From NCBI GenBank assembly GCA_004123355.1, contig SCHM01000001.1, positions 4,580,001-4,644,000 of the forward strand: DNA of 64,000 nucleotides, read 5' to 3'. Of this stretch, positions 1,856-46,311 are shown piece by piece. Position 1 is the first letter of the stretch. The number at the start of each line of letters is the position of its first letter. The translations under genes were made by a program, and so were the position numbers. The stretch is from Amphirosellinia nigrospora. Its lineage: Eukaryota; Ascomycota; Sordariomycetes; Xylariales; Xylariaceae. Below the pieces are notes generated by a model that worked only from the letters and a program-made list of their open reading frames with translations, was not told the origin of the DNA and did not search any database.

Positions 1856-3288
1856 TCACAGCTTCGCACCACGCACCTCGTCCGGCGACTTGATCTCGAC
1901 TAGCAGCTTGCCGGTGTTCTTGCCCTCGAAGAGGTCCCTGATGGCGAACTCGGCCTTCTCGATGCCGCCTTGACGATGGTCTCCTTGCGCTTCATCTTGC
2001 CCTCGGCCAGCCACTGGGCTATCTCCTCGCGGGCGCTGCTATAGTCCTTTGCAAAGTCGAATACGATGAAGCCCTCCATGCGAATGCGCTGGGCCACGAT
2101 CTGGGATAGGTTGCGGATGCCCTTGGTCTCCTTCTTGCCGTCGTTGTACCCCGAGATGGAGCCGCACATAACGAAGCGCGCGCGGAACTTAGCGCGGTTG
2201 AGCGCTGCCTCGAGGATCTCCCCGCCCACGTTGTCCCACTATAGCACTCGAAGTTAGTTATCATCATTTGGCGCGTAATTTGGGAAGGTTTCAGAAGCCT
2301 CTAGGCACTCTTTTACCCCAAACAGGAAGTACTATGCTCAGAAAGTTGCCAAACTGAGCAGGAAATGGTTCCGAGAATCACTTACGTATACATCGATGTA
2401 GTCGGGCGTCGCCTCGGCCAGGTCCTTCCGGAAGCTCTCCTTCTTGTAGTTGATCGCCGCGTCGAAGCCCAGTTCGCTCTTCAGCCACTCGCACTTCTCG
2501 TCCGATCCTGCGATCCCGACCACCCTAGCCCCGCGTAGCTTCGCGATCTGTCCTACCACCGAGCCCGTCGCGCCTGCGGCACCCGAAACCACGACTGTTT
2601 CGCCGGCTTTCGGTTGACCGATGTTATGGAGACCCGTCCAGGCTGTCATGCCAGTCATTCCTACAGAAGGGGGATTCAAGTCAGTGTCTTGCTCATCGCA
2701 TAAACTGGCCTATGTAGAGTTGGGGTGGTTTGCTGTCGAGTCTTGCAATGTGCACGACCACGTAGAGTAGATAGATCCAGCGATGGACACCACATACCTA
2801 AGACGCCCAAGCAATCGGTAATCTGACCATTCTTAGGAACCTCGACCTTCTGAAAGTCCTTCTCGCTTGCAATAGCGATCTCGGTCCAGCCGATAGTCGC
2901 CGTGACAAGGTCGCCTTCCTTAACTTTGGGGTTCTGCTGGCGAGCACGCGGGAGATGGTGCCGCCGCGCATTGTCTCACCGATGCCGACGGGCGGTACGT
3001 ACGAGCGTACATCTATAAGCCATGATTAGTCAACTCTGGTTTCCCCCTGTGAATCTTGGACACTCTGCTCGGGAACGCAGATATGTAACAGGCGGGTGGG
3101 TACATACCGTTTAACCAACCCCGCATAGCGGGGTCGAGGGACAGATATAGCGCCTCGACGAGGACCTGGCCATCCTTGAGGTCGTCGGCCGTAGGTGCAG
3201 GTTTCTTCTCGAGCTTGAAGGTCTCGCCAGGAACGACGTGAGCCTTGGGTCGCTCAGCGAGGACGAAAGTCTTGTTTTCGCGGGCCAT
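1856..3288 (-). CDS. NADP-dependent MDR oxidoreductase (alkenal/leukotriene B4 reductase type)
   Basis: Medium-chain dehydrogenase/reductase of the zinc-free type that uses NADPH to reduce activated double bonds in the cytosol. Four exons: 3288-3108, 3012-2798, 2660-2386 and 2238-1856, all with GT..AG borders. The N-terminus MARENKTFVLAERPKAHV and the motif LDPAMRGW are typical. The Rossmann segment reads VVVSGAAGATGSVVGQIAKL, followed by GSDEKCEWL and the later FDFAKDYSSAREEIA block; the end is SPDEVRGAKL. Two single-base losses break the frame, one near 2940 (exon 2, before NPKVKEGD) and one near 1974 (AAGGCGGC where AAGGGCGGC would restore the frame). With these set aside the protein is about 350 residues, normal for the family. 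The last intron (2239-2385) belongs to the introner-like family described separately. Substrate unknown. Confidence 0.85.
2239..2385 (-). repeat. Introner-like element, copy 1 (intron 3 of the oxidoreductase)
   Basis: A 147-bp intron with donor GTAAGT and acceptor CTATAG. In the sense direction it ends with AACTAACTTCGAGTGCTATAG-type sequence and has GGCTTCTGAAACCTTCCC in its middle. The same blocks occur in the same order in four introns of the GH125 gene about 16 kb away. Exons on either side (DYIDVY and WDNVGGEIL) are unrelated to GH125, so only the intron is shared. Confidence 0.85.
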
Positions 3289-7669: not shown

Positions 7670-8711
7670 TGGGATTTACAGCATGGCTGCTAGTGACGTA
7701 TGTATCGTCACGGCAGACTATGGCGGGACGAGTGCCGCTTTGGCGTGGGGGACGATTGTGTCTGTAGACGGGCTTATCAGCAATAGGCAGCGTGATGGCA
7801 ACCAGAGAATGGAGAGTCGCGTGACAGGAAGATGGATGGGGACAACACAATATCGAGCAAGACCCAGGACCGGTAGAGTTTGTAGTAATGTCGATTGAAG
7901 GTTGTGGTGTGCATGCGCAGGCGCAACGGGCAAGGGGATGCAGGTTTGTCAGGGTAGCGGGGAAGAGAATGAGCGACGCTTGAAGTCGAGGCCAAGGGCA
8001 GCAATGCAAGTAAATATACTTGCAAGGCCGTGTTGAGTAGTGGTGGTGGCGATGGTGGTAGGGGTGCGTATGATTTGGTGGTATGGTGGTATGGTGAGTG
8101 AGTGATCGTCCACAATGCTCATGACGAAGACGCTTGCGGTCGAGATTAGGTAGGGCGCATCAGGTAGCTGCTACCACAACCTCTGTTGTCGTCGCAGCCA
8201 AGAGCCAATAAACACATACATAATAAATAAGGGCGAGGTCTGACCTACTTATAGCAATACTGCTAGCAGTACGGGTTGTAACGGCACAGAAATGATGTTG
8301 GTCGTAGTTATCAATGTAGTGCGCGAAGTCGAGAGGAAGGTGGTTAGGAATTAGTCGCAAGTGACTGTTAACACTGTAAGTAAGTAGATACGCGCCTACG
8401 TTGTAAAAAAACGCGAGGATGGGTCTCAATCTTGCAAGCTCAAGTACCTATATATACAGATATTTGATTGGCTAAACCCATGTGGGGTATGTCCTAAAAC
8501 CGGATGTTCTTTGGTCGAGTCCACCTGTGCTCCCAGGTAGGTACCTAACCAGGTAGGTACCTATGTATCTAAGTACTGGCTATGTCTGCCGCAAGCATGC
8601 CGTTCTGTCGAAACTTTCACGCATGTCTTACCTACCTATTCAAGACTTCCCGTTAAATTGAACGCGAGTCTATGCGCTATTTTCAATAAAGCTACCAATG
8701 CCACAGCACTA
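7670..8711. other. Upstream region of the Myb gene
   Basis: Divergent 5' space with no credible gene. Several overlapping frames of 60-140 codons occur on the minus strand, but none has conserved motifs. Contains a cluster of AGGTAGGTACCTA motifs at about 8534-8575. Confidence 0.5.
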
Positions 8712-8877
8712 CCTTGCCCAGAGTGGGTGCACCAAAACACCACACTTTCACCCGAGCCTCTTGGACGCTATGAGTTCGCAGTCGATTCAAACAAACAATA
8801 AATCTTGAAAATTAAAGAAAGATATAAGAGGGCCGGGGTACGTGTGTGGTGTTTTGGTGCATAGACGCTGGGTAAGG
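8712..8877. mobile_element. MITE with TA target site (Tc1/mariner-like), 166 bp
   Basis: Imperfect terminal inverted repeats of about 34 bp. The left end starts CCTTGCCCAGAGTGGGTGCA and the right end, read on the other strand, starts CCTTACCCAGCGTCTATGCA; both continue CCAAAACACCACAC. About five mismatches. The element is flanked by TA on both sides (8710-8711 and 8878-8879), the usual Tc1/mariner target duplication. The AT-rich core has no coding capacity, so it is non-autonomous. Confidence 0.7.
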
Positions 8878-9015
8878 TAGGCCAGTCTACAGTGTGAGCA
8901 TTGTTCAGATCGTCGGCCCCTATTTTCAATCCGGTCGGCCCATATCACCCGGTCGTTCCGGGTACCCTGGACCGCCCCTGGATCTCAATTATTCCACGCT
9001 CAAGCACCACGACTG

Positions 9016-9418
9016 CAGGTCGAATTCTCGGACGTCACGTTTTGATAACCACACGTTAAACTAGCCGCATGCGGAAGTCAGTCCCATTTTAAGATCCAGT
9101 CTGGCTATTTGATTAGCTAGGTAAACGATATAGCCCCGGTTAAATCTGCAGATTTAGCTACATATATACTATTAAGCTAAAAATTAAATAATATTTTATA
9201 TATTATATATAAAAGTTTTTTTAAAATTAAAAAATAAGTTTTATATATTTTATTTTTTTTAATTTATATATTAGTAATAATATGTTAAGTCTTGTTTATA
9301 CAATTGCTAACTTAGAGTTATGTGCTATGTATAGATGGTTATTCGTGGGGTAAACGCTTCTAAATGCGGCTAGTTTGACGTGTAGAAATCAAAACGTGAC
9401 GTCCGAGAATCCGACTTG
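9016..9418. mobile_element. MITE with long arms and 9-bp target duplication (Mutator-like), 403 bp
   Basis: Terminal inverted repeats of about 59 bp with around eight mismatches. The left arm begins CAGGTCGAATTCTCGGACGT and the right arm, reversed, CAAGTCGGATTCTCGGACGT; both continue through CACGTTTTGAT to AAACTAGCCGCAT. It is flanked by the direct repeat CCACGACTG at 9007-9015 and 9419-9427. A 9-bp duplication plus long arms suits Mutator-like elements. The centre (about 9160-9300) is very AT-rich and non-coding. Confidence 0.8.
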
Positions 9419-9427
9419 CCACGACTG

Positions 9428-10537: not shown

Positions 10538-12393
10538 ATGGCTTCCGAATCTCAGCAGACTCTGGGTATCGAACTGGAGTTCATTGTATTCTATACAACA
10601 CCGGGTGAACAGGCGCCCGCGAAGGACGAAAAAAGATATGGGCCCGTCCTCGAGTGCCCATACTATAGCGAGATTACACCACCCCCGGGGTTTGTGATCG
10701 ATGAAAGCGTTAACTATCCCAAGCTTCTAGAAGCGGCTTGGGTCCGTCAAAAAGTAGCAGACGTCATCGCTTCAGTTGGCTTCAAGTCGAAAGCAAGCTT
10801 AGAGGCGAAGGGATCCGAGCTGGACCTCTTCGAATTCTGGAATGTAGTGCCAGATCTATCGGTGCGACTCCCTTTGGACTTCGACCAAGCGTACAGTCCA
10901 CTCAAGCATGCTGGAGGTGAATCATTTCCATATTTCTTTTTTCTTTTTTTCTCATTCGGTCAAATTATAGAGTAAAAGCCTTCCGGTTAGGCCGCGACAT
11001 CACCTTGAACTTCCTAAATCTTCACAAATCACAGTCGAAATTGCAATGGCTAACTTTAAGAGTTCTAGTGGAAGTTAATTCGCCCGTCTTCGCTGCCGGC
11101 GAGGAAGCGTTCAAGGAGATCTCGGCGGTCATTGGGGCTATCAACTCAGCTTTCCGCACGACAATCCCGCCCGTGTGCGGCTTCCACGTCCATGTCGGCC
11201 GTGGATATAAGCCCTTGGAACTTCGGCCGGTCCAGCGCACGGCAAGCTTACTCTGGCTTGCTGAGAATCTCATAGACACCTTACATCCAGGTTGCCGTCA
11301 CAGGAACAAGCAATGCTTCAGTATGAGAGGCTTTAGTGACATGACGCGTTCTCTGGATATAGAACATAAGAATAAGAATATCGGCGAAGATTTCTATCGG
11401 CCTAGGGAATCAAATCACGCCGAGTTTTCCAGGGATCGCGTTGACAAGAACAGAAAAAAGCCGACGCAATACGAGTACAACCGCCCCCTCGACGCCACTG
11501 ATAGTCCATGGTCAACGCTGTCCGGCTCCTTAGCCTTGGATTACTCTATGTCGTTCCGTGAACCTGATTATGAAGGTTTACCATGTGGCCTCGAGATGAT
11601 GGACGGGATACGAATGATTCTGAACACTATGGATAGTGCAGAGGTAGCCGCTATGACCTCCTTTGAAGATAATTGTCGAGGAGCATACAACTTCTCGAAC
11701 ATGGAGAGCGAACAGGGCGCAAGCTCCACTCGGAAGCCTACCATAGAGTTCAGACAAGCAGCGGGTTCACTCGACAAAGATTGGTATGTTTAAGAACACT
11801 AGATTTTATATTTTGGGCCAAGATGGTTTCCCGAAACGTTCAAAATCCTTGGAAGTCGTGCTTCCATGACGATTACTAACTCTACGTGCTACAGGATCAT
11901 TATCTGGGCCAAAATTTGCCTCGCCCTCAACGGGCCAGTCGTTGTAGAATCTTCGGATGACGATTTCTTCCAGCTGCTATACAACTGTGAAGAAGGTTAT
12001 CGTACGAGTCAGCGTCAGTACGATGTTTTCGACTTGCTCCACGACATCGGTCTTTGCAAGGAGGATATCGATGCCGTGCACAGCCGTCTCGTTTCCGGAA
12101 GACATGAACGGGAGCCAGTTCTTGCCTTCCATCGAGCCGACGATACCGAGGAGGGTGCCCTGGACGAGGGGTATGGACTCGGCTGGCAGCGGGGTATTCG
12201 GTACGACAACTGCAGCGATGTGACCACCCCCGAAGGGGAAGATTGGCTGTCTGGCGCCTGGGACGATATTGATGGCTGTAATGATGGCTCATCCAACAGC
12301 AGTCAGACAGATGAAGCCTGGGTTGACCCCGTCGTGAATGGGTTCTCCAGTCTTAGTGTCGAAGAGGATGACTGCTTGGCAGAGCCTTTATAG
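10538..12393 (+). CDS. Putative amidoligase (Amidoligase_2 family)
   Basis: Member of the fungal amidoligase family, ATP-dependent carboxylate-amine ligases with a glutamine-synthetase/GCS2-like fold predicted to form amide bonds on peptides or small molecules. Three exons: 10538-10916, 11069-11783, 11895-12393, with no frame break, giving 530 residues. The N-terminal LGIELEF is the family's metal/ATP-binding strand. Further family-type blocks are VEVNSPVFAAGEEAFKEI, VCGFHVHVGRG, RTASLLWLAENLIDTLHP and KPTIEFRQAAGSLD. The first acceptor was chosen at 11068 because it joins HAG to VEVNSPV in frame; earlier AGs give stops or a poor join. The C-terminal 100 residues are acidic and probably disordered. 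Neighbours give no clue to substrate. One of the few fully intact long genes here. Confidence 0.85.
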
Positions 12394-18114: not shown

Positions 18115-20230
18115 TTACGAGCCTCTATGCCGCGGTTGAAACGACTCTTTCAGAAGCTCTGGTTTCCTCTCCATTAATTCCATCATCATTTGTCCAAAGA
18201 CGGCATTTCCCAGCCAAACCTATAATCGTATAAACGTCAGTCTGTATTCTATGCTCCTGAATGATTAAAACGCCGCAGACGAAGACTCACCATGATCTAG
18301 TCCACTGGGTCGCATCAAAAACTATTGACGCTCTCATGAATCAAGCCAAATCGATCTGTGCTTTGTAACACTTCCCATATCGAGTTGATAATCTCGTCGT
18401 CGTCATCCGACGTCATGGCTCGCAATAATCGCTGCCATTGGCCACGCAGCACCCGGTTTCTGCGCAACACTCGGGTCAGTTATCGTCATTTGAAGCTCTG
18501 AGAATTACTTACGATGTGCGGGCTTCCAACGGCATTGAGCACGGGCCTTGACAAAACCAAGGGTTTGACCTCGAAAGCACAAACTTGCGCGTGTTCTGAT
18601 AGATGTGTCGTTGGCCTCGACGTACCCCAGCGATGGCGCGGACAGCAAGGACGGATATTAGCATCGTCCACTACAACACTCGAAGTCAGTTATTGCTATT
18701 TAAGCTGATTTGTGGGAGGTTTAGAAGCTTCCAGGCACTCTCTTGTCCAAAAAATGAAACTTGATGCTCCGAAAGTCGCCAAAACAGAAAGAAAATAGCA
18801 CTTGAGGGTTACTCACTAAGGTTCTGGCCGCCAAGCATCCACTTCATACGCGAAGATCCGCTGCCCGTTCGGCGCCGTCACAACGCCGAATTGCTCGATC
18901 CCGGCCCGGATCTCGGCCGCCATATCGCGCATCTCGCTTGTGAGGCCCTTGGGCGCGTTCGGCAGCTTCTCCATAATAAGTGCCGTGGCTCGAGATACCG
19001 CGACAGCATCATATTGGCCGGGATTTGGAAGTCGTATATCGCGGCGTCATCGCTTGGACGAAATGGTCGCGTACCATTCCCGTATAGTTGACCGGATAGT
19101 TCATACCGTTTATTTCCAAGAGTCCCAAAGGAAGTCATTGTCTGAGATTGAAACGTGTATGCTGGTGGGTTCCACGCGCCGTCCGGACCATAGTGGGCTG
19201 GCGCAGCGCTTCCATGCGGCGAGGATCGATTGCACCGCGTTTATCCATTCTTTCAAAACTCGGAGTCAGTTATTGCAATTTGGAGCTGATTAGGGGTTTC
19301 AGAAGCTCTAGATGCTTCCTTTCCCTGAAAGGAAACTTGGTGCCCTGAGAGCTGTCGAAACAATAAGAAAATGATTTTGAAAATTGCTTACGGAACTTGC
19401 CGAAGAAGTCTACGTCACCCGTCCTTGTATAGTAATCGTGGGATAGCTGCAAGAAGGCACCGAAAATCGTCCAGCTCGAAGTTGCATGTGAAAACAATGT
19501 TGCGATCGTACGGCGGAGTCACGGAGTAAGAGGCGCCGTTCGGTTGCGCATTTAGATCGGCCTCGGGTGGCGGGAGAAGGCATTGCAGTACCTAATCATA
19601 ACATTTTCAATAAGCAGGATCGGGTTTTGGATGTACGTCGTACTTACGGCGAGATGATGAGATATCGCCCTGCAAGTTAATCGCACCGCGGAAAAACTGA
19701 GGCGACGTCGTCATCTTTGCTCTTCAGTACACTCCTGTACGAGCCACCTGGTTCGCCGAATCTCGAATCCACATCGCATCAATGTCGCCTGTAATGATGA
19801 AGCTAATTCCTCCTCTGTATTGTTGGCCGCGAAACCCCTCCATTTTATTGCAGAATCTAAAGTACTTTTGAGACTGTTAGAACCTTCCATGCCCTGAGGA
19901 AACTTCATACTCGGAAAACTGCCAAGACGAAGAAAATGGGTCTGAGAGTAACTCACTTGGGTATGTGTTCTCGAACAGGCGGAAGAGGTCGGGGTCCGTG
20001 GTCAGATTTTTGACTTGGAGGATAGCGTCCTCGACTGCCGTCGAATTGAATGTACGACAGGCCGGGTCCGGACGTTGGTAGGAGAGCGCGTAGGCCCCGG
20101 TCGAGTAGGGTTCATGCCGGTACTGCGAATAGGCCGAGTAGCTCTGACACGTCGCACTCACTGTCTGTCCGAGAAGGCTTGTGGCCGCTGCTACTGTTGC
20201 CACAAGCCGCGTCGCGTATTGCGGGAGCAT
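18115..20230 (-). CDS. Glycoside hydrolase family 125 (exo-alpha-1,6-mannosidase), secretory
   Basis: GH125 enzymes remove terminal alpha-1,6-linked mannose. The signal peptide is MLPQYATRLVATVAAATSLL, cleaved near SA. Family blocks in order: NSAIKWRGFAANNTEEEL, TGDIDAMWIRDSANQVA, FLQLSHDYYTRTGDVDFF, MTSFGTLGN, FRPSDDAAIYDFQIPANMM, VVTAPNGQRIFAYEVD, NAVGSPHI, AWPMAAII, STDRFGLIHESVNSF and FGQMMMELMERKPELLKESF. Exons: 20230-19957, 19857-19648, 19591-19392, 19249-18817, 18670-18513, 18459-18291 and 18219-18115. About eight single-base frame changes occur, several in homopolymers (TTTTT for TTTT after HESVNS; TGGGAAAT for TGGGGAAAT before NAVFGQ). All family motifs are preserved around them, so sequence error is likelier than decay. 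Four of the six introns belong to one introner-like family, which is remarkable. Confidence 0.85.
18460..18512 (-). repeat. Introner-like element, copy 5 (short derivative, GH125 intron 5)
   Basis: A 53-bp intron, GTAAGT to GCGCAG. Its sense sequence runs GTAAGTAATTCTCAGAGCTT and then AAATGACGATAACTGACCCG. The second half is the 3' block of the longer copies. It looks like an internal deletion derivative that kept both ends. Confidence 0.7.
18671..18816 (-). repeat. Introner-like element, copy 2 (GH125 intron 4)
   Basis: A 146-bp intron, GTGAGT to TTGTAG. It shares with copies 1 and 3 the middle block AGTGCCTGGAAGCTTCTAAA and the 3' block AATAACTGACTTCGAGTG. Length and order of blocks match copy 1 in a different gene. 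Confidence 0.85.
19250..19391 (-). repeat. Introner-like element, copy 3 (GH125 intron 3)
   Basis: A 142-bp intron, GTAAGC to GAAAG. Middle block AGCTTCTGAAACCCCTAATC and 3' block AATAACTGACTCCGAGTTTT match copies 1 and 2. The acceptor GAAAG replaces the TAG of the other copies. Confidence 0.8.
19858..19956 (-). repeat. Introner-like element, copy 4 (shorter, GH125 intron 1)
   Basis: A 99-bp intron, GTGAGT to TTTAG. The 5' half aligns with copies 2 and 3 (block around CATTTTCTTCGTCTTGGCAG and AGGGCATGGAAGGTTCTAAC), and the 3' end is a shortened form of their last block. Choosing the TTTAG acceptor suggested by this alignment also puts the next exon in frame (NSAIKW). Confidence 0.7.
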
Positions 20231-22350: not shown

Positions 22351-24762
22351 AAACCAGAACCCCTAGAACCCCCAGAACCCTTATCCACGGAATCGCTTAT
22401 CCCGTGAGACCCTTATTTTACCACACATTACTGGATCATGCACGGCTAAGGCATGGTGGCTGTTTAAATGGTGAACTGGTACATATAATTCTTGCGTGAC
22501 ATTTGGTCCCGAAATATCAAATGGAACCCTACCTGTTCCAGTGTAGTACCGGGCACGCACATACTTAAGGTGATACCGGTAACAAGTGCCATCCCCACCG
22601 CGTGCGAGGGCTCTGTTGTCGTTGTTGCCGATTCCCACTGATATCACGATCCCAAACGCAGTAGCCGTGCAGGCCCTGGCACCACCTTGTCACCTTGTCA
22701 CCTGGTCTGATGAACGTATTTATGCCCGTCCAATCAACGCAACAAGCATCGGAACAAGCATGGGAGTCTGTACAATGAGTTGTCACGTATTCTCTCCAGT
22801 TCGTATTTGCATCGGAGTGTGCGTTGCAATCCTATAATTTATTATTTAGGGTACATTTTGCAACTACTATTGCTTACATGAACAGATGCCTACCTGTAGG
22901 CGCATGTGGCTTGGTAGGGTCGACTAAAGTTGGCCTTGGTACAAACCTACATATGTATACCTAAGTACTAATGCTTGTGGTTGTTTAGGTAGTGTAGAAC
23001 TGGGGGAATACAAACTGACTGGTGGCGAGTATCGACAGCGGAGGTGCTGGCCAATCGTAGCGTTTCCCATCAAGACATCGACGATGCAGCACTTGCGAGC
23101 CGACTTTGAACTTGTCGACAACATGGGCAGCCCCACTTCATTTCCCTCCCCACTAACCTTGCTCGGTGCCGGTAAGCTTCGATGTGGTTACTATACCTAC
23201 CTAATTCGGTTGTTTGAGAGGAACTGACGTTATGCTCGTACACGATCTGCCTACATATATGACACTGAGGTAGCCGAACACCAAGATGGCCTTCAAGTAA
23301 ATAGTAGCAGCACTGAGTTGCTGTGCTGCAGTAGCATCTATGATACATGCATGGCCCCAGAAGTCCCTATGTGACATATAGCTCGTTGCCGTGCAGAGAA
23401 AGGCCTACTTGGGCAGAACTGGATAGCTAAGTACCTCCTAGATAGGTACGTTCTCAAGGTGCTAGACCCTTCCATTCTCTGACCCTTCGCGCAAGGCACA
23501 GGCGCACAACGGGAGTGGGGCAGGACCCTGGATCGGCGCCGTCCAACCCTGCTAGCCATACTAAGAGGACTACTAGCAGGTAAGATGCAGAGGATGTCTC
23601 CCGATCCAAGCACCCTCCCCACACGACATCGGGATCGAGCGCAACGCTGTTCCAATCTCCATTTTGAGTCCCGCCATCCTCGTCGTCCTCACTCTCACCA
23701 TGCTTGCTGAGACTTGCAAACGGTTGCCACCCACGCCGCCGCCGCCGCTGCACACAGCGAGCGCACTGCGTACTTAGGCCGTCAGCCAGACCATGTTCTT
23801 GACCAGGGTCATGTGTGGCCAAAGCTCCGGCGAGCGATGGGATTCACATCTTTTCCTTATTGACGATTTGCCAGTGGCCTGATAGCCTGCTAGAGGCGCG
23901 TCCCCGTCTCGGTATACTCTCCGGCGTCCCCACGACCGACAACTATTAGGTTTTGTCTGCTCTGCCTCACAATCTCGATGTACGATGCCAATCTTCTCAT
24001 TATTCCATCTCGTTTGCCCCATGCACCACCGTTTCTCCCGTGCAGCTTTCCGTGCCTGGCCATCACTGGTTCCCGCCCATCCATCTCATCCCTCCCTCCC
24101 ATTTTTAAACATCCTTTCGGCTTCTTCCCTAGGCCAGTCTTAGTCTCGATCCCTACATGTGTTTTGTCTATTCTACCCATCGCCCATGACTCGAAATTGA
24201 TCTTGAAAACACGCACCACCCCCCTTCCTCTACATTTGTATAATAGAGAAACCGCCCGATTTTGCTTATTCGGCTGTGTTATTTCTCTAAATTCTACCCT
24301 CATTGCTGCTGCAGTAGAACACGTCCGCGGCAGTCGTGTGACTGTGAGTGTGTCAGACAAAGTTGTTAATAATAACCCAGTCCGCAAGCTAACCTTACCT
24401 AGGTGTTGTACGTATGACGTCGCCTTTCATCACCCTTCGATCTTCTCATTTCTGTCGACTTCCTCCATCATGCTGCATCTGAAGATAGCGTTGCACCTTT
24501 CTCAAACAAGTGTTCCACCGCTCATACTGGGTCGCGAAAACACCTAGTCCGCCCATGTTGGGTCGGTTTTATAAATCACTATGACCCTATTATTCGCAAC
24601 TTGAGAGCCCAAACAGTTATTGACTCGATTATAGACCAACATACGATCGACTTGCATATTGAATAATATTTCGTTGTGCATAACATAACCACGATGTCCA
24701 TCGGGCAAAAATACTTGTGAACACCCATTTCTTAACCGATGTAAAACATCAATCCAAATACC
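22351..24762 (+). promoter_or_regulatory. frq upstream region and probable long leader
   Basis: 2.4 kb with no independent gene. From about 23960 to 24540 the plus strand is pyrimidine-rich (many CCC/TTC runs), as expected of a long fungal 5' leader. It contains small upstream frames, including one of 189 codons at 23978-24547. Neurospora frq is known to have a leader of more than 1 kb with upstream ORFs and alternative splicing; I infer the same arrangement here but cannot place the transcription start. Confidence 0.45.
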
Positions 24763-27714
24763 ATGGCAGACCCCGAGAACACGCAAGCGGGAACGAATCT
24801 GCCCCCTACTGTCACCTACACGAACCCCGAAGAACAACGCCCGAGAACTCTATAACCTTGCGACATCATCGCCTCGCTCGGGATGCCTCGAAACGACATC
24901 CCCGCCCGCTATCCCAAATGCCCATTCGAGTGCAGCCAGGGGCCAGATGAAACCACCAAGAAGGAATTCGTCAGATGAAAGCAATGAGACAGGATGGAGC
25001 GACCCGAGGCAATGGTTCGACAAATCGAATCAGCACACTGGCGGCACCCTTCTTACCAGCGTTATGGATGTCGATCCGCCATTTTTTCAGAAGGAAACCG
25101 ACTCCTCCAACGAGGAGGCTCACAATATTCCATCGATAAGTCCAGCGTATAGGCACTCTTTTCGACCGGGCATGGCAAAGAGTAGCAGCGCTGATGATTA
25201 CCGGAGTGTCATTGATGACCTAACCATTGAAAACAAGCGCCTTAAAGAGGAACTGAGGAAGTTTAAACAAATGGGTCCGGATTCCTTACGCAACGATAAG
25301 CTTTTTGAAGTTAAAATGCATGGCCTACCTAGCGCGAAGAAAAGAGAACTTGAAGCTACATTAAGGGATTTCACAACGAAACTGGAGCGTGCAAGTACTG
25401 GGCCCCCACCAGCCGGAAGAAGTCAGGCAAATCTAAGGAAGGGGCCTCATCCGCTTCGAAACACGCCTCTTCTACCTCAGGTTCTAATTCGAGGCCCGTG
25501 GACTCTGCCTATGCTTCTATGGGGACAGGACAGAGCTCATCCCTTTTGGGGCAGACCAGATCTGCTCGTTTACGATCAACCCAAAATATTGAGGATTATC
25601 TACGAGACATTCCCGAAGGACTTTGGCCGAGGCCGGCTACAATGACAGATCATGAGAAGAAGAAGCTTGTTGTAAACGATTGGAGCAACTTTTTACTGGC
25701 AAGATGGGCCACCCGGCTGATCAACCCCTCTTAGCCGCCCTCCCGCAGCGGATAGTGGAAGATACCGAAATGGTAGATACTAGTCCTAAGATTGACCTAG
25801 TGGGAGAAGGCGCTCGAGAGGCTACGATACGGCTAGGAGAAGGGCGCCAAAAGACAAGTCATTCACACACTACGACTTCCGCATCTAACACTCGCACTCA
25901 GTCGCAATCACAATCACATTCAATCCCGCGTTCGTACGCCGACCACCAATCTCATGACCAATTTAATTCTCGCGACAATGATAAGGACAGCGGCGTAGCG
26001 GCCATGGGAGCGGAAGTGGTAGGAGAAGCGCCAACGAGGGTAAGAACACGTCGCCGCAGGAGAATATGCACGCTTCGGAACAGCGACCCACCCGCCCACG
26101 CGATTTGGACCCTGATCGCAAGCAGGTCCCCGCGGACAACATGGAGTACATACGTCATTTGGGCATCGTCGCACCTGAATCCCAGCCTCAGTTTTCGGCT
26201 AGAGACGTGTCGCCAGATGCGGACGGCTGGGTGTATCTCAATTTACTTGGCAACTTGGCGCAGCTTCACATCCTCAATGTCACCTCTGACTTCATCCGCA
26301 GCGCCGTATCAGAAAAGAGTACTAAATTTCAGCTGTCTCCCGACGGCCGAAAGATTCGATGGCGTGGCGGAGATGAGGGCACCAGGTTTACAAGCGATGG
26401 CGGCAGCAAGTCACAGACGGAACGCTCCAGCGACGAGACGGATGGGTCGAATGGACTCAACCAGCGAAAGAGACAGAAGGGGTCCAAATTCGGTCTGGGC
26501 GTTCAGGATTCCAACTCTTCCGAGAGCTTCCACTACAAGCCCCTCTTTGTGCACCAACAAAGTTCATTTGACACCGAAGACCCGTCGAGTATGGGTGACA
26601 GTGGCTCATCAAACGGACTGTCTGGAGAGAGTAACCTAGGGTTGCACTCAAAATGGAACCAGAGCGGCGTTTCGACTGGTCACAGCCAGCGCAAGCGTCG
26701 CCGCGATGGCGCCATAATTTATTATAGCGGGGCGCCATTCTGCACGGATCTCTCTGGTGATTGTAGCTACGGTGAAGTGTCTCCCAACACGTATGATATG
26801 ACGTCATCGGGTGACAACCTACGCAGGAGGATCCAGCCGCTCTCCACCTGGTTCATCGGCCTTCATCAAATCGAACTGCATCTGGGTCTTCGATTCCTTT
26901 TAAGCCACTCAGCGAGCTGAGCCCAGACTCCGCTATAACGAATTCGAACAATACGAGCGAAAGCGATGCTGAGGACTGCATCGAAGCAGAGTTCCCTTGG
27001 TCGAGTTCTGAGCAACAAGCTTATTTGGCTAACCTTGAAGCAAGTGGCTTAGGTGGTGTGTCACCGGACGATCATTTTGTTATCGTTATAACTACTAGAC
27101 GCCCCAAAGAAGGCAGTTCAGATGACGATAGTGAAGATGATAGCACTGACGACGATGCGTCGCCTCGATTGCCCCCGAAACTCGTGAGTCGCGTCAGCCA
27201 TGATACTGATGGCTCACGAGGAACCGCCGATTCGATTGTTAGTAAACTAGCTCAGATATCAACCGAACCGCATGTACCAGGGTATACTCCAACTCGCAAG
27301 GCGGTGACAATTAAGATCAGATATCTTAATAGTAAGGTTCGTCGCCTGCCACCCGTCCCGCTGCCACCACCAATGTTCTATTTCCCGTCGGGTGATTCGG
27401 ATTCCGATTACGGAGCCAGTTTTGAAGAGGAGGCCTCAGTCTCTTCTGAGCGAAGTATTCTTAGCAAACGGCCTATGCTTGAGGGTAGCCCAGATTCCGA
27501 TAACCGCGATCTTTCTGGAAATGATGAAGAGGATGAGCATTCGGAAGTCGAGCCAATATTTGCACTATCTTCTGGGGATGCGAATAAGATGTCCGGAATT
27601 AGACGTGGAGACCAAACCTCGACGACACCTTTATCGAAAATTACCACTGGAAGCTCGGTCGCTACTGCCGGTGGAGCAGGTAGCGGGTATTACAGTTCTA
27701 TGGAAGACGCTTAA
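24763..27714 (+). CDS. frq: Circadian clock protein FREQUENCY
   Basis: FRQ is the negative element of the fungal circadian clock; with FRH and casein kinase 1 it inhibits the White Collar complex. The start [10 protein letters not shown] at 24763 corresponds to long FRQ. Conserved blocks in order: [51 protein letters not shown] (dimerising coiled coil), [46 protein letters not shown] then [122 protein letters not shown] and the end [20 protein letters not shown]. Coding length is about 985 codons against 989 in Neurospora. No coding intron. Six frame changes (near 24825, 24940, 25402, 25675, 26020 and 26825) look like base-calling errors; those at 25402 (C run) and 25675 (A run) are homopolymers. 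Confidence 0.95.
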
Positions 27715-36850: not shown

Positions 36851-38070
36851 TCACCGCTCTGTAACAACGTACTCGCCCGCCTTCCGCGCCCTCTCCATGC
36901 GCGCCACCACGGCCGGCATCTCCTTCTTTAAGCGACCGAGTCCACGCACAGCATTTTCAAAGCCTCTTTCTACGTCGCCCTGGCGCTCCAGCGGGTTGAT
37001 GACCAGTCCACTACTCCCAGCACCAGCCGCATCACCACCATCCGGTCCCGACGCAGTAGATCTGTCGAACTGTGCCAGGGTCGCCGCGTTGACTTTCTCG
37101 AGCGCCTCCTCGTCACCCCTGATGCCGTTTCGCGCGGCCTCGGCCCAGGAGCCCGCCACGGTGCCGGGGACGCTCTTCTTCAGCTGCGCGATGTCGCGGA
37201 GCAGGTCCTCCTCCTCGGCCGTCAGGGCCTCGACACGGGCGCGCTTGCGGGCGTCGAAGGGCTCGAAGACTTCCTCGGGCTCCAGCGGCCCCGAGGATGC
37301 AGTACCTGGCGAGAGGAAATTCGAGGCATCTACGGGCAGGCCGTTGATGGTTAGGTTGGGCCCTGCGAGGGTGAAAGTCTTGGTTATGTACTATAGGTTG
37401 TTGTTAATTTGGGCTTTTTTTTGGTTTGACACTCGGTTGGTATTAGAAGAAAACGAAAAGGTAATTGTGCGTGAGATAAAAATAAAATCGCCACGAGTAG
37501 TGATATGATAAATATCTCGCAGACCGTAAGAAAACACGGCGAATCCTCAATATATGTGTGGCATGGTGTTGCCAAAAATGCACAAAACATACAACACCAG
37601 GGATTCGCTGGTCGTCACCGACCCAACTACTAATCTGGCGGTATCTGGCTTAGCTATGGGGGAGCGGACGGGACCCGCGTTTTCCAGATCCTATGGTCGT
37701 ATGTACCAGAACTCTGTCTGAATTGGGTTATATGTCGACTGGCGAGCCACTCATGCCTTCTCATTTACTCAAGTTCATTCCATTGGATGTAACATGAGGA
37801 TTGAAAACGAGTTTTCGGAAAGCAAACTGGGGGCAAGTGTGCATTTGCAATTGAGTTGTGGAGTGCATGGAAGGGGAATATTGAAACTTTAATAAAGTCG
37901 TCATACCTCATTCACAAGCTCCTCAATTCGTGTCCGCAGTTCGTCTTCCGTGTTGTCGTCGACCGGGGGAACGCCTCATCGATGCGGGCTGCGGCGGCGC
38001 GACGGACGTTGGCGACCAGGTACGCGAGATCCTCGGGGACTTGGAGCTCGATTTTGCGCGCCGAGTCCAT
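36851..38070 (-). CDS. Kinetochore protein Mis14/Nsl1-like
   Basis: Subunit of the Mis12/MIND complex that links centromeric chromatin to the outer kinetochore. Exon 1, 38070-37907, encodes MDSARKIELQVPEDLAYLVA, NVRRAAAARIDEAF and ELRTRIEELVNE. Exon 2, 37390-36851, begins YITKTFTLAGPNLTINGLPV and continues through FEPFDARKRARVEALTAEEE, VAGSWAEAARNG and the helical end ENAVRGLGRLKKEMPAVVAR, MERARKAGEYVVTER. Order and spacing match Mis14 proteins; corrected length is 234 residues. One base is missing in the C run after DEAF (near 37971, five C where six are needed). The intron between the exons is 516 bp, unusually long for this genome. GC-rich coding against an AT-rich intron supports the exon limits. 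Confidence 0.8.
37391..37906 (-). other. Unusually long intron in the Mis14 gene
   Basis: Donor GTATGA, acceptor CTATAG, 516 bp; other introns in this window are about 45-150 bp. No conserved frame inside on either strand. Could hold an unannotated small insertion or a regulatory function; I see no inverted repeats proving insertion. Confidence 0.5.
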
Positions 38071-40142: not shown

Positions 40143-40913
40143 CTTGCCTCGCAGCCCTATCCTGTTCAGTTTATGATCTCGACGGAGAGCTCTAGGACTA
40201 CCGGCTAGCGACAGCACAACCGCAGCTTTATTCACGACGGGGCAAGCCGCTCAGTTGTTGTAGGGCACTGACGTTATCTTCCACTCCAAACCGAGACTTT
40301 GATCTAAACCATGAGTTAAGATTAGTCTGTCTCAGAGATTATCTACAGCAAGACTTCATTTTTTTTCAGTTGCTATTATCCCACAGAATGTTCAGGACAA
40401 GCTACGGCAAACGAACTACCTAGTAGGTAGGTAGGCTGAAAAACAACCCACTCTTTTTTTGTAGTTTATCGTGTGCGCATTCTGAACGTGGTTGTCAATG
40501 TGAGTCTACAAGTCCAAGATGTCCGTATTCCCCTACTACCCCAACAGTGAGCAATGACACTGCCGGGCGTTTTGAAGCCTTGCTTAGTGGAAAGCCCCAC
40601 TGTCTATGAACTCCCATACATATAAGTACCGAGATACCTAGTCTGGTGTTCATGCACAGTACGCGCACAGCCCCAGGGCGAGTCTTGAAAGTACCCAATG
40701 TGAAGGCATCACAAGCGCAAAGGATGATAGGTGGTGTCATAAAAGCTAATTAATTTAGACCAATCAATCCTTCCACAACAGAAAATAAGGCAGACTAGCG
40801 CATTGTTTAGGCCAATGCCGATAACGCACCCAGGATATCCACTTGACTAATGATAGGGGACCTACAGTAGGCGCTCCTTTGTTTTACTGTACGTACAGTA
40901 CCTGGCTACACTA
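40143..40913. other. Intergenic stretch 5' of the methyltransferase
   Basis: No gene seen. Contains ACTACCTAGTAGGTAGGTAGG at about 40417-40435. Confidence 0.45.
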
Positions 40914-41272
40914 CGGAGGTTTGTGTCACTATTGATCATTATCCTTGGCAATGGTGTAAAGTGCAAATGGGGGAGCTCATACACGGTATGACGGCTTGGC
41001 AACCAGTGTTTCGGGCCGGCAGTAGTCTATAAAGTCATAGACCACTAACTGCGCTATACCGTTAATGCAGATGGGACATATCAATCGTTAGCTAGAGCGG
41101 AGTTCAGGGCTTAGCCTAGTAGAGTAGATACCTAGCTAACTTTCTGCTGAGACTGTCGGGCTGCAAGCGGCCCGATGAACTAGTTGCCAAGCCGTCACAC
41201 CGTGTGTGAGCTCCCCCATTTGCACTTTACACCATTGCCAAGGATAATGATCAATAGTGACACAAACCTCCG
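40914..41272. mobile_element. Young MITE with 91-bp near-perfect arms and TA target site, 359 bp
   Basis: The left arm starts CGGAGGTTTGTGTCACTATT at 40914 and the right arm ends with its reverse complement at 41272. The arms pair over about 91 bp with only two differences, both transition-type (within the TCATACACGGTATGAC region). TA dinucleotides flank both ends (40912-40913 and 41273-41274), as in Tc1/mariner-derived MITEs. The core of about 175 bp has no frame. High arm identity means a recent insertion or strong constraint. Confidence 0.85.
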
Positions 41273-42650
41273 TATATACTATGTATGTAAGTAGGGAGTG
41301 GGGTAAAAATCACTGCCTTTCGTGGGGTAGACCCCTTATCAGTTATCGTGCTCCAATAATCCCTACTGTACATCTCCAACCTAGATACCTAATAGTAGTG
41401 GGGTCAAGTACACTAGTGTACGGCGTCCGCAACTTAAAGCTCCCATCGGGTAACCCCACATACAGTATACAAATACTGTCTTATTCGCCTTGCCGGCACA
41501 TGAAGCATCCAACCACCATCGTCAAATCAAGCATCAGGGATAAACCTGCCATTTCATACATTCCCATCCAATCCATCATTCATGCGTCTTCCTATCTACT
41601 TACGGGCCCACCTAGGTCATTCTACCCACCAAGGTCAATAGACTAACTAGACTACCTTGCAGGTCACCCAGTTTAAAAATTCAACTGTAATGTAGGCACT
41701 TTACACGTGGTGCATGAGGAATAAGAGATAGCTGAATGAAAACAAATATATCAACCAAAACCAGGTGAAAGATTGACGCCCAAGCCCGCCAACGCATTGT
41801 CCACTACCTAGCTGCGCACCAGATGGGCAGCAATTTAGACGGCAGACAAGAGCAGCCCCGCAACACGTGGTGTCTCTAGTCTCACGGTGGTTGACCCGCT
41901 GAGTATGGTAGAGGAGAGGGTATCCTAGAGAATGTCTTGCCTGTTGGCGTTCCAGTACGACCTGGGAATGCACGTCTTAGCAGTGTCTGCTGCTAGTTTC
42001 TTTTCAGATTGTGGAATTACTCATTTGGCGTCGATCAAGTTGTGCCTTGCCTAACTAGATCTTACTAGGTGATTAGACTAAGCATCGCGGAGTATCTCCA
42101 ACGTCTTTATGTAGTAGTGCTTAGGAATTATAAATGAAGAACATGAACAAAGGCACCTAGAGGATATGAATTTTCACTTAAGATAGAGTACAGCAAGTGC
42201 TCTGTTACTATGACTGAGCCGAGTAAAGAAGTCTTCGTAATGTAATGATGCCATCGAATAAGAAAGGTTCCTTTCGGGTTGCCGTTTTATTCCACGAGGA
42301 CAACGACCTAATATCTGGCCCTTTCCGACGGTGGATATCAGGTAATGGTATAGAGACGTACGGTAAATCCACGCCTAACTCCAAAACGCCTGTGTTTAGC
42401 CCTCTCCTGAGCGGAGAGCTACCTACAATGTCATCCCGATCATATCGTAATGTTGGCTCTCCAAACTGTGCATAGAAACAACCCGTTCTACAGGCTGCAT
42501 AGAAAGAAAGTTTGTTGAGTTTAATGGTCCCATCCAGGAAATGAGAGCCCGAATCCAGACGCCGTAGTATTGCGAAAATGGTCGTGTAATCTTGCGAAGA
42601 CTTCTTGGTGTCTATGAACGAAAAGCAATAGTTGACCATCAATGACCTTA
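41273..42650. other. Intergenic stretch, no supported gene
   Basis: Contains repeated GTGGGGTA motifs at about 41298-41330 and 41398. A 188-codon minus-strand frame (42208-42774) overlaps the last exon of the next gene in another frame and is rejected. Confidence 0.45.
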
Positions 42651-44938: not shown

Positions 44939-46311
44939 ATGGGCGATATCGCGGTAGAGAACCCGGCCAACATGCTCGCGCCACACAACAAACCCATCCC
45001 TTCCGCCATACCGAATATCGAGACCATCGAGGGCATCCCATCGCAAGGGGGAGATGAATACGCCTCATTAAAAAAGCTGCAACGGCACTTAGAGTACATT
45101 CAGCTACAGGAGGAGTATATCAAGGATGAGCAGAGGTGAGTCCAGCAATTGACGTACAGGCGATGTATGGCGACTAACTACCGTGCATAATAGGAGCCTA
45201 AAGCGCGAGCTTGTTCGTGCACAGGACGAAATCAAGCGCATTCAGAGTGTCCCGTTAGTCATCGGCCAGTTCATGGAGGCTATTGACCAAAAGTAAGCCC
45301 TCACCGCGTCATCGTGTTCGACTGCATCCTGACAATTCATAGTACCGGTATAGTCCAATCCAGTACCGGCTCTAATTATGTAGTCCGGATCCTGTCGACA
45401 CTGGATCGCGAGCTGCTGAAACCCTCGTCATCCGTTGCCCTCCACCGACATTCCAATGCGCTCGTCGATATCCTCCCCCCGAAGCCGACTCCTCTATTGC
45501 CATGCTAGGTGCCGACGAGAAGCCCGACGTGACATATGCTGATGTCGGTGGTTTGGACATGCAGAAACAGGAGATTCGGGAAGCTGTTGAGCTTCCCTTG
45601 ACACACTTTGATCTCTATAAACAAATTGGTATCGACCCCCCACGAGGTGTCCTCTTGTACGGTCCTCCTGGCACCGGCAAGACGATGTTGGTCAAGGCCG
45701 TGGCCAACTCGACAACTGCCAACTTCATTCGCGTTGTCGGCTCCGAGTTTGTTCAAAAATATCTCGGTGAAGGTCCACGAATGGTTCGAGATGTCTTCCG
45801 CATGGCTCGCGAGAATTCGCCTGCAATCATCTTCATTGATGAGATTGACGCGATTGCGACGAAGCGTTTCGATGCGCAGACCGGTGCTGACAGAGAAGTG
45901 CAGCGTATTCTGCTTGAGTTGCTGAACCAGATGGATGGTTTCGACCAGACATCGAATGTCAAGGTTATCATGGCCACGAACCGAGCAGATACCCTAGACC
46001 CCGCTCTGCTTCGACCGGGACGGTTGGATCGAAAAATTGAGTTCCCTAGTCTACGGGACCGGAGAGAACGACGCCTTATCTTCTCGACCATTGCTAGCAA
46101 GATGAGCTTGGCACCTGAAGTAGACTTGGATAGCTTGATCGTGCGGAACGATCCTCTAAGTGGCGCTGTTATCGCCGCTATCATGCAGGAAGCCGGGCTT
46201 CGTGCTGTCCGGAAAAATCGATATAACATCATTCAATCTGACCTAGAGGATGCATACTCTAGCCAAGTCAAGGGGACCAACGACGAAAACAAGTTCGACT
46301 TCTACAAGTAA
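44939..46311 (+). CDS. rpt3: 26S proteasome regulatory ATPase subunit Rpt3
   Basis: AAA+ ATPase of the proteasome base that unfolds ubiquitinated substrates. Exons: 44939-45135, 45194-45292, 45343-46311. N-terminal coiled coil ([20 protein letters not shown]), OB domain ([36 protein letters not shown]), Walker A GPPGTGKT, Walker [15 protein letters not shown], second region of homology [20 protein letters not shown], and C-terminus NKFDFYK, which ends in an HbYX-type motif that docks into the 20S ring. The sequence follows yeast Rpt3 closely throughout. The only break is one missing C in a run at 45475-45480 (six C, seven needed) between DILPP and EADSSIAML. Corrected length is 421 residues. 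Since the gene is essential, this is strong evidence for an assembly error. Confidence 0.97.

Follow-up and report, generated by a model that had tools for sequence, protein, structure and literature searches.

Can a spliceosomal intron multiply as a unit, several times within one gene and again in unrelated ones? The question is raised by a 64 kb stretch of fungal DNA (the window, meaning the whole stretch that was analysed), which carries the gene frq and a gene for a GH125 (alpha-1,6-mannosidase-like) protein. A preliminary description of this DNA had proposed that four introns of the GH125 gene are related, that the exons are not repeated, and that the introns themselves have multiplied. 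We find that the resemblance extends to introns of two further genes, for a medium-chain dehydrogenase/reductase and an amidoligase-like protein. Five clear and two weaker copies are spread across these three unrelated genes (Table 1). They very likely constitute an old, partly decayed introner-like family, whose full units are complete U2 spliceosomal introns of 142-152 nucleotides (nt).

Seven related introns in three genes

Two GT...AG introns of the GH125 gene, at 18671-18816 and 19250-19391, can be aligned end to end. Their local score is 75, against a mean of 17 for shuffled sequences and with none of 200 shuffles reaching it, and BLAST pairs them at E 7e-9. An alignment no better than that of shuffled introns had been named beforehand as the outcome that would speak against multiplication; the proposal came through this comparison.

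We built a profile from the four GH125 introns and took the 64 kb window as the search space. The profile recovers the intron at 2239-2385 (62.6 bits, E 2e-18), 16 kb away from the GH125 gene in an unrelated gene; BLAST places this intron at 76% to 18668-18783 (E 1e-11). It also gives E 1e-3 for the amidoligase intron at 10917-11068 and E 0.065 for that at 11784-11894. With a later profile of five copies these values become 7e-6 and 0.002, the latter corresponding to 13.6 bits against a decoy maximum of 10.3.

In leave-one-out profiles, all seven copies score above the best hit of 41 decoy windows, made of the reversed window and 40 shuffles. The kinship of the four GH125 introns is borne out by E-values from 4e-23 to 2e-3, the shortest of them facing a best decoy of 9.3 bits. 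The amidoligase introns reach 26.2 bits (E 3e-7, decoy maximum 8.0) at 10917-11068 and 17.0 bits (E 2e-4, decoy maximum 8.6) at 11784-11894. Any other place in the window stays at or below 8.2 bits, and the profile search of the 64 kb found neither an antisense copy nor an additional one above decoy level. All seven copies are introns in sense orientation.

Pairwise local scores, each tested against 200 dinucleotide shuffles, lead to the same grouping. Among the five clear copies, nine of the ten pairs beat all shuffles; the lone exception (p 0.065) joins the two partial copies, 18460-18512 and the intron that starts at 19956, which overlap little. As a background of intron grammar we used the 54 strings in the window that follow a strict donor/branch-point/acceptor pattern, which are unverified candidates and not proven introns of the species. 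Five of them overlap the family; the other 49 form 1164 non-overlapping pairs with a top score of 27. Ten of the 21 family pairs exceed this value, nine of them among the five clear copies.

The window was also compared with itself by BLAST. At E<1e-3 the comparison returns three inverted-repeat pairs and just two pairs of family introns, and no repetition of exons was found by it, as had been stated. With splice-bounded copies in two more genes and unrepeated exons, the idea that the introns themselves have multiplied is strengthened.

The significance resides in the full length and in the 3' block, as tests of single blocks indicate. With up to three mismatches allowed, the 3' block ATAACTGACTTCGAGTG matches the window at three places (2245, 18677 and 19257) for 0.17 expected, and none of 100 shuffles reaches three; the copy at 18460 escapes this search because of an indel inside the block. 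The 5' end alone, with a pattern taken from the copies, has four matches for 0.78 expected (three of 100 shuffles reach four). The middle block by itself falls short of significance: it has five matches in the window for 1.8 expected, four of 100 shuffles reach five, and we rejected it as a stand-alone signature. A 26-position family pattern has no match in collections of virus and prokaryote contigs, which are little informative for fungal introns.

Table 1 Family introns and other features of the three genes (positions in the window; a slash marks the exon junction in the peptide).
Feature	Position	Strand	Length	Phase (junction)	Remark
Full-length copy, intron of medium-chain dehydrogenase/reductase gene	2239..2385	-	147 nt	0 (DVY/WDNVGG)	
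Probable diverged copy, intron of amidoligase-like gene	10917..11068	+	152 nt	1 (HAG/VEVNSP)	
Possible diverged copy, intron of the same amidoligase-like gene	11784..11894	+	111 nt	2 (DKDW/IIIWAK)	
GH125 (alpha-1,6-mannosidase-like) gene region	18133..20230	-			first ATG (20230) to last recognised piece
Ordinary GH125 intron	18220..18290	-	71 nt		no profile match
Internally deleted copy, GH125 intron	18460..18512	-	53 nt	0	13.8 bits, E 0.002 leave-one-out
Full-length copy, GH125 intron	18671..18816	-	146 nt	1 (L/MDDANI)	77.7 bits, E 4e-23 leave-one-out
Full-length copy, GH125 intron	19250..19391	-	142 nt	1 (GKF/QWINAV)	63.5 bits, E 8e-19 leave-one-out
Ordinary GH125 intron	19592..19647	-	56 nt		no profile match; 0/7 pairwise comparisons significant
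Copy without 3' block, GH125 intron	19857..19956	-			36.9 bits, E 1e-10 leave-one-out over 19869-19956

Intron ends, reading frames and anatomy

The ends of the reductase copy are supported by the protein. Its flanking exons encode a medium-chain NADP-dependent reductase, and the junction peptide is open. Around the intron, the upstream stretch of Pfam ADH_zinc_N ends at profile position 63, where the final residue is already the first codon of the intron; the downstream stretch restarts at position 64. Alignment of the joined peptide with the solved reductases 4b7c and 8ov8 is gap-free at the junction, and the strict donor/branch-point/acceptor pattern gives the same intron ends.

The GH125 gene is identified by Pfam PF06824 on two of its pieces (E 2e-10 and 3e-9), and a joined piece matches seven solved GH125-type sequences in the PDB. 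In peptides picked by eye, at least ten changes of reading frame fall within its exons. These changes are either indels of assembly or sequence, or the decay of a pseudogene. The coding region of frq (24689-27711; PF09421 at E 4e-109 and two others) is likewise split over several frames. Single-base differences within the introns should not be over-read. The junction regions of the reductase and amidoligase genes are open, unlike the GH125 exons and frq.

Junctions are locally open for three of the four GH125 family introns. The intron at 18671-18816 joins GGQNL/MDDANI, and the strict pattern gives its ends as well. For 19250-19391 the junction peptide DFFGKFQWINAVQSIL is open in one frame; this intron is absent from the strict-pattern list because its acceptor is AAG, whereas the pattern requires YAG. 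The intron at 18460-18512 runs from the 5' end straight into the 3' branch-point block, with the middle gone; its junction GSPHI/KPGAAWPM is open and the strict pattern gives the same ends. The 19956 intron keeps its 5' two thirds only and has two candidate acceptors. That at 19857 (TTTAG), chosen by the strict pattern, is in frame but loses the TLD with which the exon frame continues; that at 19865 (AAAAG) keeps TLD but shifts the frame by one.

Two details of the preliminary description are amended by these alignments. It had given all four introns a shared middle and 3' block, which holds for 18671-18816 and 19250-19391; the middle is missing from 18460-18512 and the 3' block from the 19956 intron. 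It had also let every copy end exactly at a splice site, which is correct for the other three, while position 19858, chosen for the 19956 intron, is no splice site.

Two more GH125 introns are of the ordinary kind. The one at 18220-18290 is weakly similar to the 19956 copy in one of seven comparisons (score 21, 0 of 200 shuffles); an unrelated candidate intron also scores 21 against that copy. A repeat at 18148-18169 was dismissed as chance; it is part of the coding sequence (ERKPELLKESF) of the last GH125 exon.

The amidoligase-like gene has its Pfam Amidoligase_2 match (PF12224, E 3e-11) downstream of 10917-11068. The joined frames are open across both of its junctions, and for 11784-11894 the strict pattern gives the same ends.

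The donors of the seven copies are GTGAGT, GTAAGC, GTAAGT, GTGAAT and GTATGT, with GTRAGY in five of the seven. As branch point the copies have CTGAC or CTAAC (CTRAC). Where a copy retains its 3' end, as six do, the branch point always stands 11 or 12 nt before the last three bases, and the spacer often reads TTCGAGTG... From the joined frames, phase 0 occurs twice, phase 1 four times (counting the uncertain 19956 intron) and phase 2 once.

Among full-length copies, the one in the reductase gene shares 66% identity with 18671-18816 and 59% with 19250-19391; between the latter two the figure is 63%. The distances from the reductase copy to the GH125 copies are thus similar to the distance that separates those two, so the family is not simply a duplication within one gene. 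Identity of the full-length copies to the one at 10917 is 54-57%.

No signal of target-site duplication was found in boundary-aligned flanks: a copy's own flanks match at a mean of 4.0 of 16 positions, swapped flanks at 4.2 of 16 (42 pairs). TGG directly follows three of the seven copies in the exon (2236-2238, 18668-18670 and 11069-11071); a target preference for TGG is possible, but the pattern was noticed post hoc and we do not claim it.

Origin and spread of the family

The family has probably spread through RNA. The multiplying unit would be a complete intron carrying its own donor, branch point, spacer and acceptor. Sense-oriented copies would have entered unrelated genes within their coding sequence, where they should do little harm because they can be removed precisely from the pre-mRNA. 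In the most likely step, the excised intron RNA would be placed into DNA at a new site. Either reverse splicing at a transcribed gene or capture of the intron RNA during repair of a break could achieve this, with copying into DNA to follow. Internal or 3' pieces may have been lost later (18460-18512 and 19857-19956), with the splice signals retained. Complete, sense-only, genic and seamless introns that show no target-site duplication signal agree with the pattern that has been argued in fungi for spread of intron RNA.

Several points weigh against this interpretation. Where at least 100 columns align, the copies are 44-66% identical, and therefore no recent activity is seen; by sequence comparison, the pattern of identities suggests an old family. 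Eleven of the 21 family pairs stay at or below the best background pair. Among the 11 pairs that involve an amidoligase intron, four have p <= 0.015 and seven do not; these two copies have modest scores and no mutual resemblance (p 0.87). The reductase copy has a 4-base flank match (TATA), the longest run, which is equalled in 2 of 42 swapped pairs. Splicing is predicted, and gain at these positions is what we infer. Copy number comes from 64 kb: five to seven copies in that length would translate into thousands in a fungal genome, an extrapolation and not a measurement since four of them sit in one gene, and a figure of hundreds of copies is extrapolated as well.

The lack of symmetry belongs to the same side of the balance. 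The introner-like elements (ILEs) of Capnodiales and the stwintrons of Xylariales are described, in the portions of the literature that we draw on, with symmetry or a stable fold. Here we find no significant one: folding energy and self-complementarity lie within shuffles for all seven copies, and the consensus fold of three aligned copies has p 0.85. It is possible that a former symmetry was erased by decay, which could leave such a picture. In gapped alignments of the ends, pairing is slightly above shuffles for 18671-18816 (p 0.052) and 19250-19391 (p 0.042), and the other four copies tested show no excess. The reading of 18671-18816 as a long hairpin with a bulged branch point, made by eye, was rejected (energy z 0.08, within shuffles).

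We also paired the first 18 nt of the copies with the segment from branch point to acceptor, and compared the mean duplex energy with column permutations. The p-values are 0.061 for four copies, 0.032 for six and 0.147 for three, and pairing is often equally strong in ten background candidate introns. This near-terminal pairing is suggestive, and we treat it as a lead only.

Other histories could produce similar introns. Their positions might be old and their sequences overwritten by one another through ectopic gene conversion or recombination. Such a process is compatible with the three intron phases in use and with gain being inferred, and the partial copies at 18460-18512 and 19857-19956 could be partial tracts. 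It would be expected to need shared flanks, however, and no similarity of flanking exons was found, while three full-length copies in two genes are alike from donor to acceptor; we hold conversion to be unlikely. Quite improbable is a tandem duplication of exons and introns inside the GH125 gene, to the point where it hardly needs to be entertained: four of the seven copies do lie in that gene, but its exons are unrepeated and the identities of the reductase copy, given above, contradict it.

A non-autonomous DNA transposon that brings or co-opts splice sites, like the introners of Micromonas, would also deliver complete introns. This route is argued to be the commonest for introners outside ascomycetes, in the part of that survey available (PMC9860276), the window does contain inverted repeats of the kind of miniature inverted-repeat transposable elements (MITEs) elsewhere, and for two of the six copies tested end pairing lies slightly above shuffles (p 0.05 and 0.04). 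Against it stand the absent target-site duplication signal in own versus swapped flanks, self-complementarity within shuffles in seven of seven copies, and a profile that detects no antisense or extra copy in the window; we judge this origin to be unlikely as well. Alternatively, the introns could host a functional non-coding RNA, for instance a small nucleolar RNA (snoRNA), so that the RNA and not the intron is conserved. Internal blocks are indeed conserved along with the splice signals, and one copy has, by eye, a box-C-like TGATGA. This string is absent from the other copies, none of the seven has a stable fold, and similarity stops at the splice sites. At gathering scores, the sole Rfam match of the window is a 5S rRNA; a search of 18400-20000 with the limit relaxed to E 5 gives only two sub-threshold matches, both exonic. 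A conserved RNA is therefore very improbable, and the snoRNA idea was rejected on the Rfam results. Spread of complete introns through RNA accordingly remains our preferred account.

The remaining features of the window concern its repeats and its gene order. A MITE-like inverted-repeat element of 363 bases (40912-41274) is 75% self-complementary over its full length (BLAST E 1e-62). Inverted arms of 56 nt at 9015-9070 and 9364-9419, 89% alike, enclose an AT-rich interior and look like a MITE or a decayed element; a smaller inverted pair (8709-8745 and 8844-8880) adjoins them. The 5S rRNA gene is at 37586-37704 on the minus strand (E 3e-17). An rpt3-like gene for the 26S proteasome 6B/Rpt3 subunit lies at 45376-46308, about 18 kb from frq, and this linkage resembles that of Neurospora, which favours a Sordariomycete-like host but falls short of proof. 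In the portion of the source at hand, frq of Neurospora crassa is NCU02265 and rpt-3 is NCU02260 (PMC5940138). A piece of the FRQ protein gave 22 and 3 pattern matches in the virus and prokaryote contig collections, none confirmed as a relative.

Comparison with known multiplying introns

The full-length copies are alike from end to end across positions and genes, with boundaries at predicted splice sites, which is what introners are in the broad sense. The ILEs of Capnodiales were reportedly described by van der Burgt et al. in 2012, a study that we know through other papers. Introners have been reported in Pezizomycotina, as far as the consulted part of the survey goes (PMC9860276). The preliminary description named them from Dothideomycetes, so that a family in a Sordariomycete-like genome would extend their range. 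This is outdated: multiplying [D1,2] stwintrons and canonical introns derived from them are published for Hypoxylaceae and Xylariaceae, in the Xylariales, according to the excerpts used here (PMC8469720, PMC12403724).

Hosts of Capnodiales ILEs include, in the excerpt cited, Fulvia fulva, Dothistroma septosporum and Zymoseptoria tritici (Collemare et al. 2015, PMC4457414). As far as these partial descriptions go, the present family shares much with them: canonical spliceosomal introns are repeated in unrelated genes, sometimes twice per gene, and decay into ordinary introns. Insertion is seamless there (per PMC8469720), and here the copies are in sense orientation without target-site duplication. 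Unlike those ILEs, the copies in the window have low identity, in a comparison made by description and not by sequence.

With the stwintrons of Xylariales, as described in the passages available, the family has in common multiplication in unrelated genes, plain canonical derivatives and internally deleted forms, and possibly the fungal class. Those stwintrons have complementary near-terminal elements, the 3' one between branch point and acceptor (PMC12403724, in the part consulted); pairing of the donor side with the same spacer in our copies is a possible likeness. The spacer measures 11-12 nt here and, by that partial account, 14 or 19 nt in the stwintrons. The copies are no [D1,2] twin introns, since an internal acceptor with a split donor after it is missing from all seven, and no second intron is nested in them; a G precedes the donor, as in the G-GT start of stwintrons, in two of the seven (10917 and 11784). 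Terminal inverted repeats of 45-55 nt, as described in these excerpts, do not occur here. The 10-nt stwintron palindrome WTTCTAGAAA is absent from the whole window, and the quoted NTIRE-10 strings are absent from all seven copies.

The family fits the ascomycete outlier class of Gozashti et al. 2022, which in the accessible text has no terminal inverted repeats or target-site duplications and is genic (PMC9860276). That survey took families of at least five members in annotated genomes (per PMC12403724, seen in part); the present family has five clear members and two weaker ones in a single 64 kb window. It differs from DNA-transposon introners of the Micromonas type by showing no signal of target-site duplication and no significant terminal inverted repeats.

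The family alone leaves current knowledge unchanged, as fungal introners and multiplying stwintrons are already published. Titles and abstract openings among the matches listed hold no description of this family; supplementary tables were outside that search, and an earlier report is possible. A tentative and rather doubtful further reading is that it is an undescribed introner family of a frq-bearing, Neurospora-like fungus, spread as plain, unsymmetrical U2 introns and up to four times in one gene. If true, the symmetry held to drive intron multiplication in fungi would not be required, or would be needed just as a short stem between the donor side and the spacer from branch point to acceptor.

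How new spliceosomal introns originate is not settled, and some of the best natural evidence comes from introns that are repeated. With several copies in one gene and with deletion variants, a plain-intron family such as this, in what is likely a Sordariomycete, would be a further system in which to test intron gain and the need for RNA symmetry.
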